A stretch of DNA of 57,647 bases. Origin: a virus. Under the pieces are notes generated by a model. The model did no database searches, had not been told where the DNA came from, and saw only the letters and a program-made list of their open reading frames with translations. The DNA is taken from positions 1 to 57,647 of the IMG/VR virus record IMGVR_UViG_3300048111_000040. One strand, 5' to 3'. The position numbers and the translations under genes were made by a program. Below are positions 26,090-29,901 of this stretch, in pieces (position 1 is the stretch's first letter; every line of letters starts with the position of its first letter).

Positions 26090-28229
26090 ATCCGACTCCG
26101 TAGGATTGATCTAGGGGATCTACTGCCGGCATGTTTTGACTCATAACAATCCCTGAAGAAGAGTTGTTGTTGACTACTTGTGTAGATGGTGCGACAATCA
26201 TTGCTTGTTGTCTTCTCTCTTCTGCAGCTAATGCTCTTTCTGCATTTTCTTTGTTTGCGAGATCTACCTCTTCACCTCTACTGTGTCTCATCATCAAATC
26301 TCTAGATCTTGTTAACAATTTCTCACGTCTAGCTTCGTCCATCTTCGCTAGTTTAGCGGTATCGAGATCTCCGTATTTTTCAACGTCCGCTTTCTCTTGC
26401 GCTTGTTTTTCTTTAAATTCCGCAAGTTGCATTTCTCTTATACGGAGAGATTCTCGCATCTCTTCCATTTGGTCTTCCTGACCTTCTTCTGTATTATCAT
26501 ATTCCATCCACGCTGCTGCTGATTCACGACCCTCAGCTCGAGCCTTTTCAATATCCGCATCAGTCCATGTAAAGGTAGTATCTCCTGATTCAAGTCTCGC
26601 TTTGAGTTGATCAATTTCTGCCTTTAGTTTCTCTTCCCCAGACATACGTTGTTCTTCTTTCTTCTTCTCTAACTCAGTTGTGTCGCCTGTCTTAATTGCG
26701 TTCATCTGCGCCTTTTTAAGTTCTGGTGTACTTTCTAGTTGTTGTGGTTCTTCGGTCGGTAGTTCTGAACCCTCTGGTTCGGATACTGCTGGTTGACCCG
26801 CCCATTCATAAACAGAATCGGGTACAAACTTAGACATGAACGAACCTTGTTTTGGTAACAACCCAATGAAAAAGTCTTTGATACTTTGTTTGATATTCGC
26901 AATACCTTCGCCAAGTGCAGCGAACATATCGTCCCCACCCTCAAACATTCCGAATACTTTCTCAATCAAACCGAGGAACACATTCTTAATACTTGTTGCG
27001 ATAGAACCAAAGAAACCAGAGATTGCGCCAAATATACCGCCATCTTTAAATCCTTCTATTGCCCCTTTGAACGCATCCTTGTAGATCTGGACTAAACCCC
27101 CGAAAAATCCGAAGACTCCATTGGCAATTCCGTCTACCAATCCACTGAACAGTCCTGAGAAACTGAATCCAGCCAATAGGTTCTCAAAGTTCTTGAATCC
27201 TAGTTTACCAGCAATCCAACCAATACCACTCTTCAATAGATCTAAAGGCATCATGATGATACCGTTGACCGCACCCTTAATAAATCCAAAGAAACCTTTA
27301 GTGACACTCTTGAGTAGACCATCACCTTCTTCTCTGGACTTGGTGAAGTCTGCGAACATACCTTTGATACCACCGATAAGACCAGTGATTATTGTGATAG
27401 GAAGTGCAATTACACGACCAACTACTGCGAATGCTCTGAATACAACATTAAATGTTCTGGCAAACCCACTAAAGAGTCTACCGACCGTTCTAAATCCGTC
27501 ACCTATTCTACTAAAGAATTGACCTATCCTACCAGTTTGGGCAGCTGCACCATTCATTACTCTACCGATAGAACCTATTGCTCTTCGGATTCTATTGAAT
27601 GGTCTAAGGATGAACCTATTCGTCATTCTACCTATGCTAGCAAAGAAACCAGTTATTCCTCTTTGAAGACTAACGAATCTTCCCATCGCACCACGGACTG
27701 CTCTGGTTTCACCTCTTAGTCCTGCCTTAAATGCTTTACTAATATTAGTAAAGAAGTTCGTTACAGGTTTAAAGAAATCCTTTATCGTAGTAATCATACT
27801 AACGAATTTCCCTTGTACAAACTGAACTAACCTAGTGTTCTTAAAGAAATCCTTTGTACTCTTAGCTAATAGAGTGAATGGACGAGTAATAGTTTTAACA
27901 ATACCAGCGACAAGACCAAGAACCGCACCAGTCAAACCAGCAACGATTCCACCGAGTACCCCGATGAATCCAAAACTACCGTTATCTTGAGGGGCAGGAG
28001 GGGGAGTGCCTCCACCGCCAGATGGGCCACCACGGTCGTCGCCCTCTTGGTCATCTTGAGATCTTTGACGATCAAGCGCCATCCCATCCAACATGTCCCC
28101 AATAAGATTCTTAGTGGTTCGTGTGTTGAATGCAATTTCACCCGAACGATCATTGATTTCCCCAAGAGTCTTCTCATTAGAAAGCCTTAGTTTGTCGATC
28201 GCACCTTGAATGTTCGCCTGTCTTGCCAT
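26088..28229 (-). CDS. 29: gp29-like tail tape-measure/hub protein
   Basis: The 713-residue protein has the build of a tape-measure protein. A helical N terminus (to about 60) and a Gly/Pro-rich linker (65-85) come first. A long middle follows with repeated hydrophobic Gly-rich segments (G-F-I-G-V-L-G-G-I-V-A-G-L-T-G), alternating with Phe/Lys repeats such as K-D-F-F-K. The C terminus is highly charged and coiled. In T4, gp29 (590 residues) sets tail length within the tube. It lies directly after the gp26 frame and its -1 extension, the classical place for a tape measure behind its chaperones. The assignment rests on position and composition rather than on a specific motif. Confidence 0.6.
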   Translation of the reverse strand: MARQANIQGAIDKLRLSNEKTLGEINDRSGEIAFNTRTTKNLIGDMLDGMALDRQRSQDDQEGDDRGGPSGGGGTPPPAPQDNGSFGFIGVLGGIVAGLTGAVLGLVAGIVKTITRPFTLLAKSTKDFFKNTRLVQFVQGKFVSMITTIKDFFKPVTNFFTNISKAFKAGLRGETRAVRGAMGRFVSLQRGITGFFASIGRMTNRFILRPFNRIRRAIGSIGRVMNGAAAQTGRIGQFFSRIGDGFRTVGRLFSGFARTFNVVFRAFAVVGRVIALPITIITGLIGGIKGMFADFTKSREEGDGLLKSVTKGFFGFIKGAVNGIIMMPLDLLKSGIGWIAGKLGFKNFENLLAGFSFSGLFSGLVDGIANGVFGFFGGLVQIYKDAFKGAIEGFKDGGIFGAISGFFGSIATSIKNVFLGLIEKVFGMFEGGDDMFAALGEGIANIKQSIKDFFIGLLPKQGSFMSKFVPDSVYEWAGQPAVSEPEGSELPTEEPQQLESTPELKKAQMNAIKTGDTTELEKKKEEQRMSGEEKLKAEIDQLKARLESGDTTFTWTDADIEKARAEGRESAAAWMEYDNTEEGQEDQMEEMRESLRIREMQLAEFKEKQAQEKADVEKYGDLDTAKLAKMDEARREKLLTRSRDLMMRHSRGEEVDLANKENAERALAAEERRQQAMIVAPSTQVVNNNSSSGIVMSQNMPAVDPLDQSYGVG

Positions 28230-28235
28230 TTCTTT

Positions 28236-28430
28236 TTATCCGTTTTGCTGGTTTTGTTTCTCTATTCTTTCATTCTCTTCCTTCACATGTTCTAATAACA
28301 TAGCTACGTATATTTCCCTCTCCCATGGCATCATCATGTCCAGTTCTGTTAAACTATAATGATGATGTTGCATCATTGCAAAATTCGTCTTATAATGATT
28401 TACAAGACTATCATGAGAAAGGTTTAGGAT
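28236..28430 (-). CDS. -1 frame extension of gp26 (G/GT-like tail chaperone extension)
   Basis: Reading continues in the -1 frame from the slippery site at the end of gp26 for 64 residues, ending at TAA 28236-28238, seven bases before the tape-measure ATG. The peptide includes N-L-S-H-D-S-L-V-N-H-Y-K-T-N-F, S-L-T-E-L-D-M-M-M-P-W-E-R-E-I-Y-V and a charged helix. The 'M-P-W-E-R-E-I-Y' pattern is typical of the second half of phage tail-assembly chaperones. The ATGs inside the frame have no Shine-Dalgarno, so a frameshift fusion of 301 residues (237 + 64) is the likelier product. Alternative: separate translation from ATG 28374-28376. Confidence 0.7.
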   Translation of the reverse strand: MLNLSHDSLVNHYKTNFAMMQHHHYSLTELDMMMPWEREIYVAMLLEHVKEENERIEKQNQQNG

Positions 28431-29140
28431 AAAAAATCCGATATCCCTTTAAGTTCAATTTCATTCTCAGTTTCACAATTCAAACATGTAAACTTCGCTT
28501 CATGTTTCATTGATGGAAGGTCACCGATATACTTGGTAACTTTCTCAAACTGATCACTCGTCATCGATTCGATGAACTCGTACAATTCTTTCTTAGACAC
28601 ATCTTTCGCATCTATTCTTTCTTCGTCCAAACCTTGTTTAGTAACAATGGCTGAAACACTGTGAACAACCATCGACATTCCAAGTTCAACTTGGTCGGCA
28701 TTTAGGTTAGAGTCCATCAATGCCTTATAAGGCGGATACTTCATCTCTACTGACACTTCATCTGTCAAATCAACAGTTGGATTCCTTTCCCCGATCTCAA
28801 CTCTGATACTAGCTAGATCGACAGAGTATTCGTGTTGCGTACCACATTCCTTACACTTCAACAATACTGTAGACTTCTCACCAGCAGACTTAGAACGAAT
28901 TTGAGTAAACATATACTCAACATCAAATGTCGCTAAATCATGTACGTTAATGTTTTCTTGAACACACGCTTCAATGGTAGAGACGATTGCTTTCAACGCT
29001 TGTTTCTGATCACCAGATTCAAACGCCATCATCAACACCTTTTCCTCCTTAACAAGATATGGTCTAAATGTGACCTTCTCTCCTGTTGACGGAACCGATA
29101 ATTCATATATCGGTGCAGTGTTTAACTTTGGTAATGCCAT
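28424..29140 (-). CDS. 26: gp26-like baseplate hub/tail-assembly protein
   Basis: The 238-residue product resembles the T4 gp26 baseplate family (PF12322-type): L-P-S-V-x-type N-terminal strand with V-T-F-R-P-Y-L-V-K-E-E-K-V-L, a helical middle with M-F-T-Q-I-R-S-K-S-A-G-E, and a pair of C-x-x-C knuckles at C96/C99 and C219/C222 that could bind one zinc together. An AGGAGAAATG site supports the start. An ACTAAATA box lies 43 bases upstream. The last codons contain the slippery heptamer, so this is the 0-frame (G-like) product of a probable frameshifting gene preceding the tape measure. Confidence 0.75.
   Translation of the reverse strand: MALPKLNTAPIYELSVPSTGEKVTFRPYLVKEEKVLMMAFESGDQKQALKAIVSTIEACVQENINVHDLATFDVEYMFTQIRSKSAGEKSTVLLKCKECGTQHEYSVDLASIRVEIGERNPTVDLTDEVSVEMKYPPYKALMDSNLNADQVELGMSMVVHSVSAIVTKQGLDEERIDAKDVSKKELYEFIESMTSDQFEKVTKYIGDLPSMKHEAKFTCLNCETENEIELKGISDFLS
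28430..28436 (-). other. -1 slippery heptamer T TTT TTA
   Basis: On the minus strand the gp26 codons read GAT TTT TTA TCC TAA, so the heptamer T TTT TTA is correctly phased for tandem slippage one base back, two codons before the stop. It is the same heptamer and phase as the HIV-1 gag-pol site. No obvious downstream pseudoknot was seen by eye. Confidence 0.75.
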
Positions 29141-29196: not shown

Positions 29197-29901
29197 TTAA
29201 AAGAAACTCAGTCCGCCACTAATTATCTTATCGAATATACTCTTCGCATCTGCGGACTCTGCCTCCCAATCCTTGAACTTGAACGATACTGTAAGTTCCA
29301 TGATTGCGTTCTCTTGATCATTTCCTAACTGAGTGTCACTCATTGTAGTGGGAATCGCATCGATTAATCTACAACTGTAGGACATCTCGTCCTTAGTACC
29401 CAAATCCAAATCGATCTCACCTTGCGACAATTTAAACGGCCCAATGTCTGGTAGTCGATTACGAATAAGTGGGTCTACTTTCTTCAAGAAAGGAATTTGT
29501 TTGTTAAAGACTGGAATAGTCGCAGCCTTAGACATTGTCTCGATCTTTATATCACGAGCATATTCTTTATAGTAACCGACTTCACCTTTGTTGAATGCCA
29601 CTTTTTGCCATTCATTGAAATAGTTTTTTACAGTATGATTAGTGGGAACATGAAATGTCATGGTCACTTCGGACACACTCATTTGGTTCACAATATCATA
29701 CTTGTACATACCAACTTGTTTTTCAAGTGTACCTAACTGACGGCCAGGCATCAACACTGCCTTACACAAAAGGTTTAGATCTTTGGTATTGTACCCTTTT
29801 ATCGGAGGTAAAATTACACGAAAAAGATTTGGTCTTTGAATGTTACCACTCTTACCAAGTAAACCTTTTAGTTCTTCTATGTCGCCTAGTCTGCTACCCA
29901 T
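29197..29901 (-). CDS. 54: gp54-like baseplate tail-tube initiator
   Basis: The 234-residue protein belongs to the T4 tail-tube (gp19/gp54) fold group: L-L-C-K-A-V-L-M-P-G-R-Q-L-G-T resembles the 'x-x-x-V-x-L-P-G-R-x-x-x' entry, and V-T-M-T-F-H-V-P-T-N-H-T-V-K-N-Y-F-N-E-W-Q the 'M-T-F-x-V-x-x-x-x-x-x-x-x-F-x-x-W' region. The C-terminal half includes S-Y-S-C-R-L-I-D-A-I-P and T-V-S-F-K-F-K-D-W. In T4, gp54 caps the baseplate and starts tube polymerisation with gp48, whose homologue is encoded at 31058. It overlaps the preceding minus-strand gene by eight bases. Confidence 0.65.
   Translation of the reverse strand: MGSRLGDIEELKGLLGKSGNIQRPNLFRVILPPIKGYNTKDLNLLCKAVLMPGRQLGTLEKQVGMYKYDIVNQMSVSEVTMTFHVPTNHTVKNYFNEWQKVAFNKGEVGYYKEYARDIKIETMSKAATIPVFNKQIPFLKKVDPLIRNRLPDIGPFKLSQGEIDLDLGTKDEMSYSCRLIDAIPTTMSDTQLGNDQENAIMELTVSFKFKDWEAESADAKSIFDKIISGGLSFF

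Follow-up and report, generated by a model that had tools for sequence, protein, structure and literature searches.

The window analysed here, the whole 57,647-nucleotide stretch of IMG/VR virus record IMGVR_UViG_3300048111_000040, carries on its minus strand a gp26 gene with a tail tube gene before it and a tape-measure-like gene after it (Table 1), the gene order of frameshift tail assembly chaperones. The gp26 protein matched PF12322 (T4_baseplate) with 184.8 bits against a curated cut-off of 24.5 (E 2.3e-54), and phrog_150 with E 1.8e-58. Direct reading confirmed what the first-pass annotation had described at the end of this gene: it reads GAT TTT TTA TCC TAA, and the T TTT TTA heptamer lies in the X XXY YYZ phase that is right for simultaneous -1 slippage. 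From the heptamer on, the -1 frame meets its first stop, a TAA, at 28238-28236; the 64 codons that follow the slip include MPWEREIY. The products deduced by frame have 238 residues (gp26) and 301 residues (fused), also as claimed. This frame does end just before the tape-measure-like gene, whose ATG is at 28229, but the gap is six bases and not the seven given earlier, a trivial difference. The -1 extension alone matched phrog_634 ('baseplate hub assembly catalyst', the T4 gp51 family) with E 2.1e-27, and it also matched the C-terminal columns 231-281 of phrog_150.

Table 1. Features at the gp26 locus of the window, with the evidence for each.
Feature	Position	Strand	Evidence
Predicted frameshift gene, whole, 301-aa fusion product	28236..29140	minus	fusion HMM aligned across the junction with gp51 of T4 relatives
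gp26, short tail assembly chaperone form (TAC-N), 238 aa	28424..29140	minus	PF12322, phrog_150, AlphaFold and Foldseek
In-phase slippery heptamer T TTT TTA	28430..28436	minus	sequence; TTTTTTN in relatives
-1 frame extension, 64 codons and stop, C-terminal part of the predicted long form (TAC-NC)	28236..28430	minus	phrog_634, phrog_150, dN/dS
Shine-Dalgarno-like AAAGGG, candidate stimulator, 8 nt before the heptamer	28445..28450	minus	GG conservation and anti-Shine-Dalgarno pairing in relatives
Possible hairpin of 9 bp, 21 nt past the heptamer	28387..28408	minus	region z -2.8
Tape-measure-like gene, downstream, 713 aa	26088..28229	minus	phrog_4200 (E 3.1e-8) and other tape-measure families
Tail tube gene, upstream	29197..29901	minus	phrog_45 (E 2.5e-31)

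A sequence search for a solved homologue found none. The AlphaFold model of the window's gp26 had a pLDDT of 91, and when it was compared with the PDB by Foldseek the highest-probability matches were to the HK97 tail assembly chaperone 2OB9 (probability 0.92-0.93), with E values of 0.29-0.5 and TM scores by target of 0.40-0.51 over part of the model. The extension was modelled as helices in a T4-type gp51 relative, which is a natural fusion. The window's gp26 also has two CxxC knuckles, C96/C99 and C219/C222, which are found in T4 gp26 and in the family consensus as well and gave weak zinc-ribbon matches. The protein may possibly bind zinc.

The window has 111 copies of the hexamer TTTTTT, where 104 were expected. 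A run of six Ts is therefore common by chance, and the window on its own gives the heptamer little significance. The comparison with relatives is what decides. These were collected by scans of IMG/VR and from GenBank phages, which gave 253 loci where the end of gp26 is complete, in 78 clusters at 80% amino-acid identity. Since the clusters share descent, we give counts as counts and not as independent probabilities. An in-phase TTTTTTN near the gp26 stop, together with an open -1 frame, was present in 251 of the 253 loci and in 77 of the 78 clusters. Heptamer, phase and -1 frame, which had been proposed as points for comparison, were all kept among relatives that span cyanophages and phages of Sinorhizobium, Vibrio, Stenotrophomonas, Acidovorax and Desulfovibrio. 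A scan seeded with the Desulfovibrio phage protein returned zero loci and one seeded with the Stenotrophomonas phage protein two. One Stenotrophomonas phage contig (L259), near-identical to locus L258, has five Ts instead of six and a shifted frame; this is likely a sequence error or a variant.

The six Ts might be a functionless by-product of a conserved D-F-F/L peptide in an AT-rich genome. Such runs are indeed frequent in the window, and the Phe-Phe pair is partly conserved even in T4 gp26. When each protein was held fixed and synonymous codons were redrawn by its codon usage, however, an in-phase T6 close to the end of gp26 was expected in about 26 of 77 clusters, as compared to 77 of 77 observed, with the reservation that the relatives are not independent. 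The P-site codon was TTT in all 77 clusters, although TTT makes up 63% of the Phe codons in the same genes, and the base before it was T in all 77 too. The A-site codon varied between TTC, TTT, TTA and TTG, so that its residue switches between Phe and Leu while the six Ts stay constant. T4, where frameshifting is not needed, shows the reverse: its gp26 site reads GAG TTC TTT GAG, with Phe-Phe kept, T6 gone and the -1 frame closed. The probability that we leave to a mere by-product is practically negligible.

A homopolymeric site could also be used at the level of transcription, where slippage of RNA polymerase on the T run would yield a mixed mRNA pool encoding both forms. A minority of relatives do have seven or eight Ts. 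In bacteria, transcriptional slippage usually needs 8-9 Ts, whereas 59 of 77 clusters have an A-site codon other than TTT and hence a run of about six. The strict codon phase and the purine-rich element upstream also favor slippage of the ribosome, and we consider a transcriptional origin very improbable.

The -1 frame behaves in evolution like coding sequence. Over 178 pairs, dN/dS of the extension was 0.107 in this frame, whereas the remaining frames gave 0.88 and 2.5; the extension is under strong purifying selection. In many records it is a small gene in its own right ('gp51, baseplate hub assembly catalyst'), a CDS of about 35-60 codons that would be translated from an internal start. In 42 clusters the -1 frame has its first ATG at codon 20-21 (at codon 20 in the window), some clades have an internal ATG at codons 4-5, and in T4 the annotation of gene 26' shows internal initiation within the gp26 gene. 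Conservation of the extension, however, begins with the heptamer, before the usual ATG is reached; this ATG lies within the conserved block. Annotated starts vary by record with no single start position conserved, and in the Desulfovibrio phage extension a survey of start codons found no ATG, GTG or TTG. The second frame is thus conserved as an extension of the protein and does not depend on having its own start codon. A -1 stop is located three or fewer nucleotides before the heptamer in 11 of 76 clusters, which leaves slippage as the natural entry into the frame in these genomes. Finally, a separate gene would leave the conservation of T6 unexplained, and T4 gp51 has the corresponding region fused to a gp26-like domain. 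Independent initiation of the extension thus appears quite improbable to us.

The comparison with T4 links the two frames to known proteins. T4 gp26 covers columns 14-235 of phrog_150, whereas T4 gp51 covers columns 13-280 and in addition matches phrog_634. On an HMM built from 74 fusions, T4 gp26 aligned up to position 236, which is the frameshift point, whereas gp51-type proteins aligned through the junction (IME13 gp51, for example, over 66-287). Since the gp26 alignment ends at the junction and that of gp51 crosses it, the two genes of T4 correspond to the two products of the frameshift gene. Gene counts fit this picture. PF12322 was found once in each of 21 single-gene genomes (10 with the frameshift and 11 more, six of the latter Ackermannviridae) and twice in T4, in IME13 and in two other genomes with gp51. 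A separate pair of genes 26 and 51 in the style of T4 was not found in the window or in a 144-kb contig with an identical gp26, each of which had one PF12322 copy, although both records may be fragments. At another locus (L269:2001-2746), a T4-type gp51 gene is split across two frames in mid-gene, away from the slip position; this split is an indel or a sequencing error.

Elements that might stimulate slippage were looked for on both sides of the heptamer. Upstream, a GG at -11/-10 was present in 77 and 75 of 77 clusters, respectively. Pairing with the anti-Shine-Dalgarno sequence amounted to -6.2 kcal/mol as compared to -4.9 kcal/mol in synonymous controls (p 4e-9, without correction for the tree), a signal that is partly due to a conserved glycine. 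The window's own pairing was not above that of its synonymous control. Downstream, the 60-nt regions after the heptamer folded better than in-gene controls, with a mean z of -1.74 as compared to -0.40. A structure shared by all relatives was rejected, as RNAalifold gave no consensus. In the P-SSM2-like clade, a hairpin starts 5 nt after the heptamer and is nearly invariant in 56 distinct sequences (loci L086 and L100-L179). Synonymous diversity was 0.11 at this hairpin as compared to 0.35-0.37 further up- and downstream. Covariation was looked for and not obtained, since the pairs are nearly invariant, and the support is one of synonymous constraint. The hairpin is a probable frameshift stimulator in that clade, whereas for the window the evidence for stimulatory elements near the slip site is weak.

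The Ackermannviridae constitute an exception. We read eight loci from this family or its close relatives that have the conserved -1 extension, and in seven of them (L094 and L271-L276) the heptamer is missing and [A/C/G]TT TT[C/T] is found instead, for example in A ATT TTC ATT TAA. Vibrio phage Bakedbeans (L277) retains T TTT TTC. The six of these phages that were searched over the whole genome have a single PF12322 gene each. Most of the Ackermannviridae examined thus keep the extension without the canonical heptamer, so that the motif is no prerequisite for the extension by itself. Single-gene -1 frameshifting might be the general state of gp26-type genes, which T4-type phages replaced with gene 51, while most Ackermannviridae drifted to N NTT TTY and kept the -1 extension. 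We give this history about even credence. If true, one chaperone family would have changed its route to two isoforms at least twice.

In all likelihood, then, two forms of a tail assembly chaperone arise from the gp26 gene of the window via -1 ribosomal frameshifting. The first-pass annotation had proposed such a G/GT-type role, which gained support from conservation, the phrog_634 match, the equivalence with T4 gp26 and gp51 and a tentative structural resemblance to 2OB9. The phage, an oceanic one, very probably makes the short and the long version by a one-base backward slip of the ribosome. Heptamer, phase, extension, selection and homology can be read from the sequences; that ribosomes slip in the cell, how often they do so and which proteins are bound is inference. 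Most ribosomes would read on to the gp26 stop and produce the 238-aa short form. A minority would slip by -1 with tRNA-Phe in the P site and tRNA-Leu in the A site on U UUU UUA, giving a 301-aa long form with a 64-residue tail that is predicted to be helical. The long form would probably join the tape measure protein, encoded by the next gene, and the tail tube protein, encoded by the gene before, as is thought for lambda gpG/gpGT. T4 would produce the equivalent pair from its genes 26 and 51.

This reading would account for the apparently tiny orphan 'gp51' of marine T4-like phages. It would also explain why the essential gp51 of T4 resembles gp26, the former being the long and the latter the short form of a single chaperone. 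The extension matched 621 phage records. Those examined make it a gene by itself, 'gp51 baseplate hub assembly catalyst', with starts that vary, or call it hypothetical, or leave it without annotation, and a joined CDS was not found among the annotated GenBank regions examined. The earlier remark that the frameshift is not annotated routinely was thus right for GenBank, and many phage genome annotations could be corrected. Relatives with one gene and with two may further serve as a natural system to study why tail length and assembly depend on the proportion of short and long form.

Tail assembly chaperones of the lambda gpG/gpGT type were reportedly described by Xu, Hendrix and Duda in 2004. 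Characteristic of frameshift chaperones are two products, the long one in minor amount, that are required for tail assembly but do not end up in the virion. By layout, the window resembles lambda in the position between the tail tube and tape measure genes, in a short and a predicted -1 long form with a common N-terminus and in a slippery site close to where the first frame ends. The slippery heptamer of lambda is G GGA AAG, whereas that of the window is T TTT TTA, and the window has a larger N-domain with paired CxxC motifs. In PMC3004832, gp26 and gp51 of T4 figure as hub assembly chaperones. The family PF12322 is common to T4 and the window, the short form corresponding to gp26 and the long form to gp51 with its equivalent C-terminal extension, but T4 uses two genes where the window has one gene and a probable -1 frameshift. 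In Vandenendeviridae and Andersonviridae, the chaperone locus has a poly-T -1 frameshift with the motif GTTTTT (PMC12846349). As in the window's relatives, it lies just upstream of the tape measure gene and the extension was annotated as a separate gene; these are, however, other phage families, with GTTTTT instead of T TTT TTN, and the comparison is by description. According to PMC10885494 and PMC12846349, Vladimirov et al. (2022) identified tail assembly chaperones of T4-like phages, and the latter paper, from 2025, cites them for known poly-T -1 frameshift signals in T4-like TAC-N genes. By these accounts, frameshift chaperones of this type are already known in T4-like phages, and the window is a well-supported further case. 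What our analysis adds is the breadth of the family, the split between one gene and two, the hairpin of the P-SSM2 clade and the loss of the heptamer in most of the Ackermannviridae examined.
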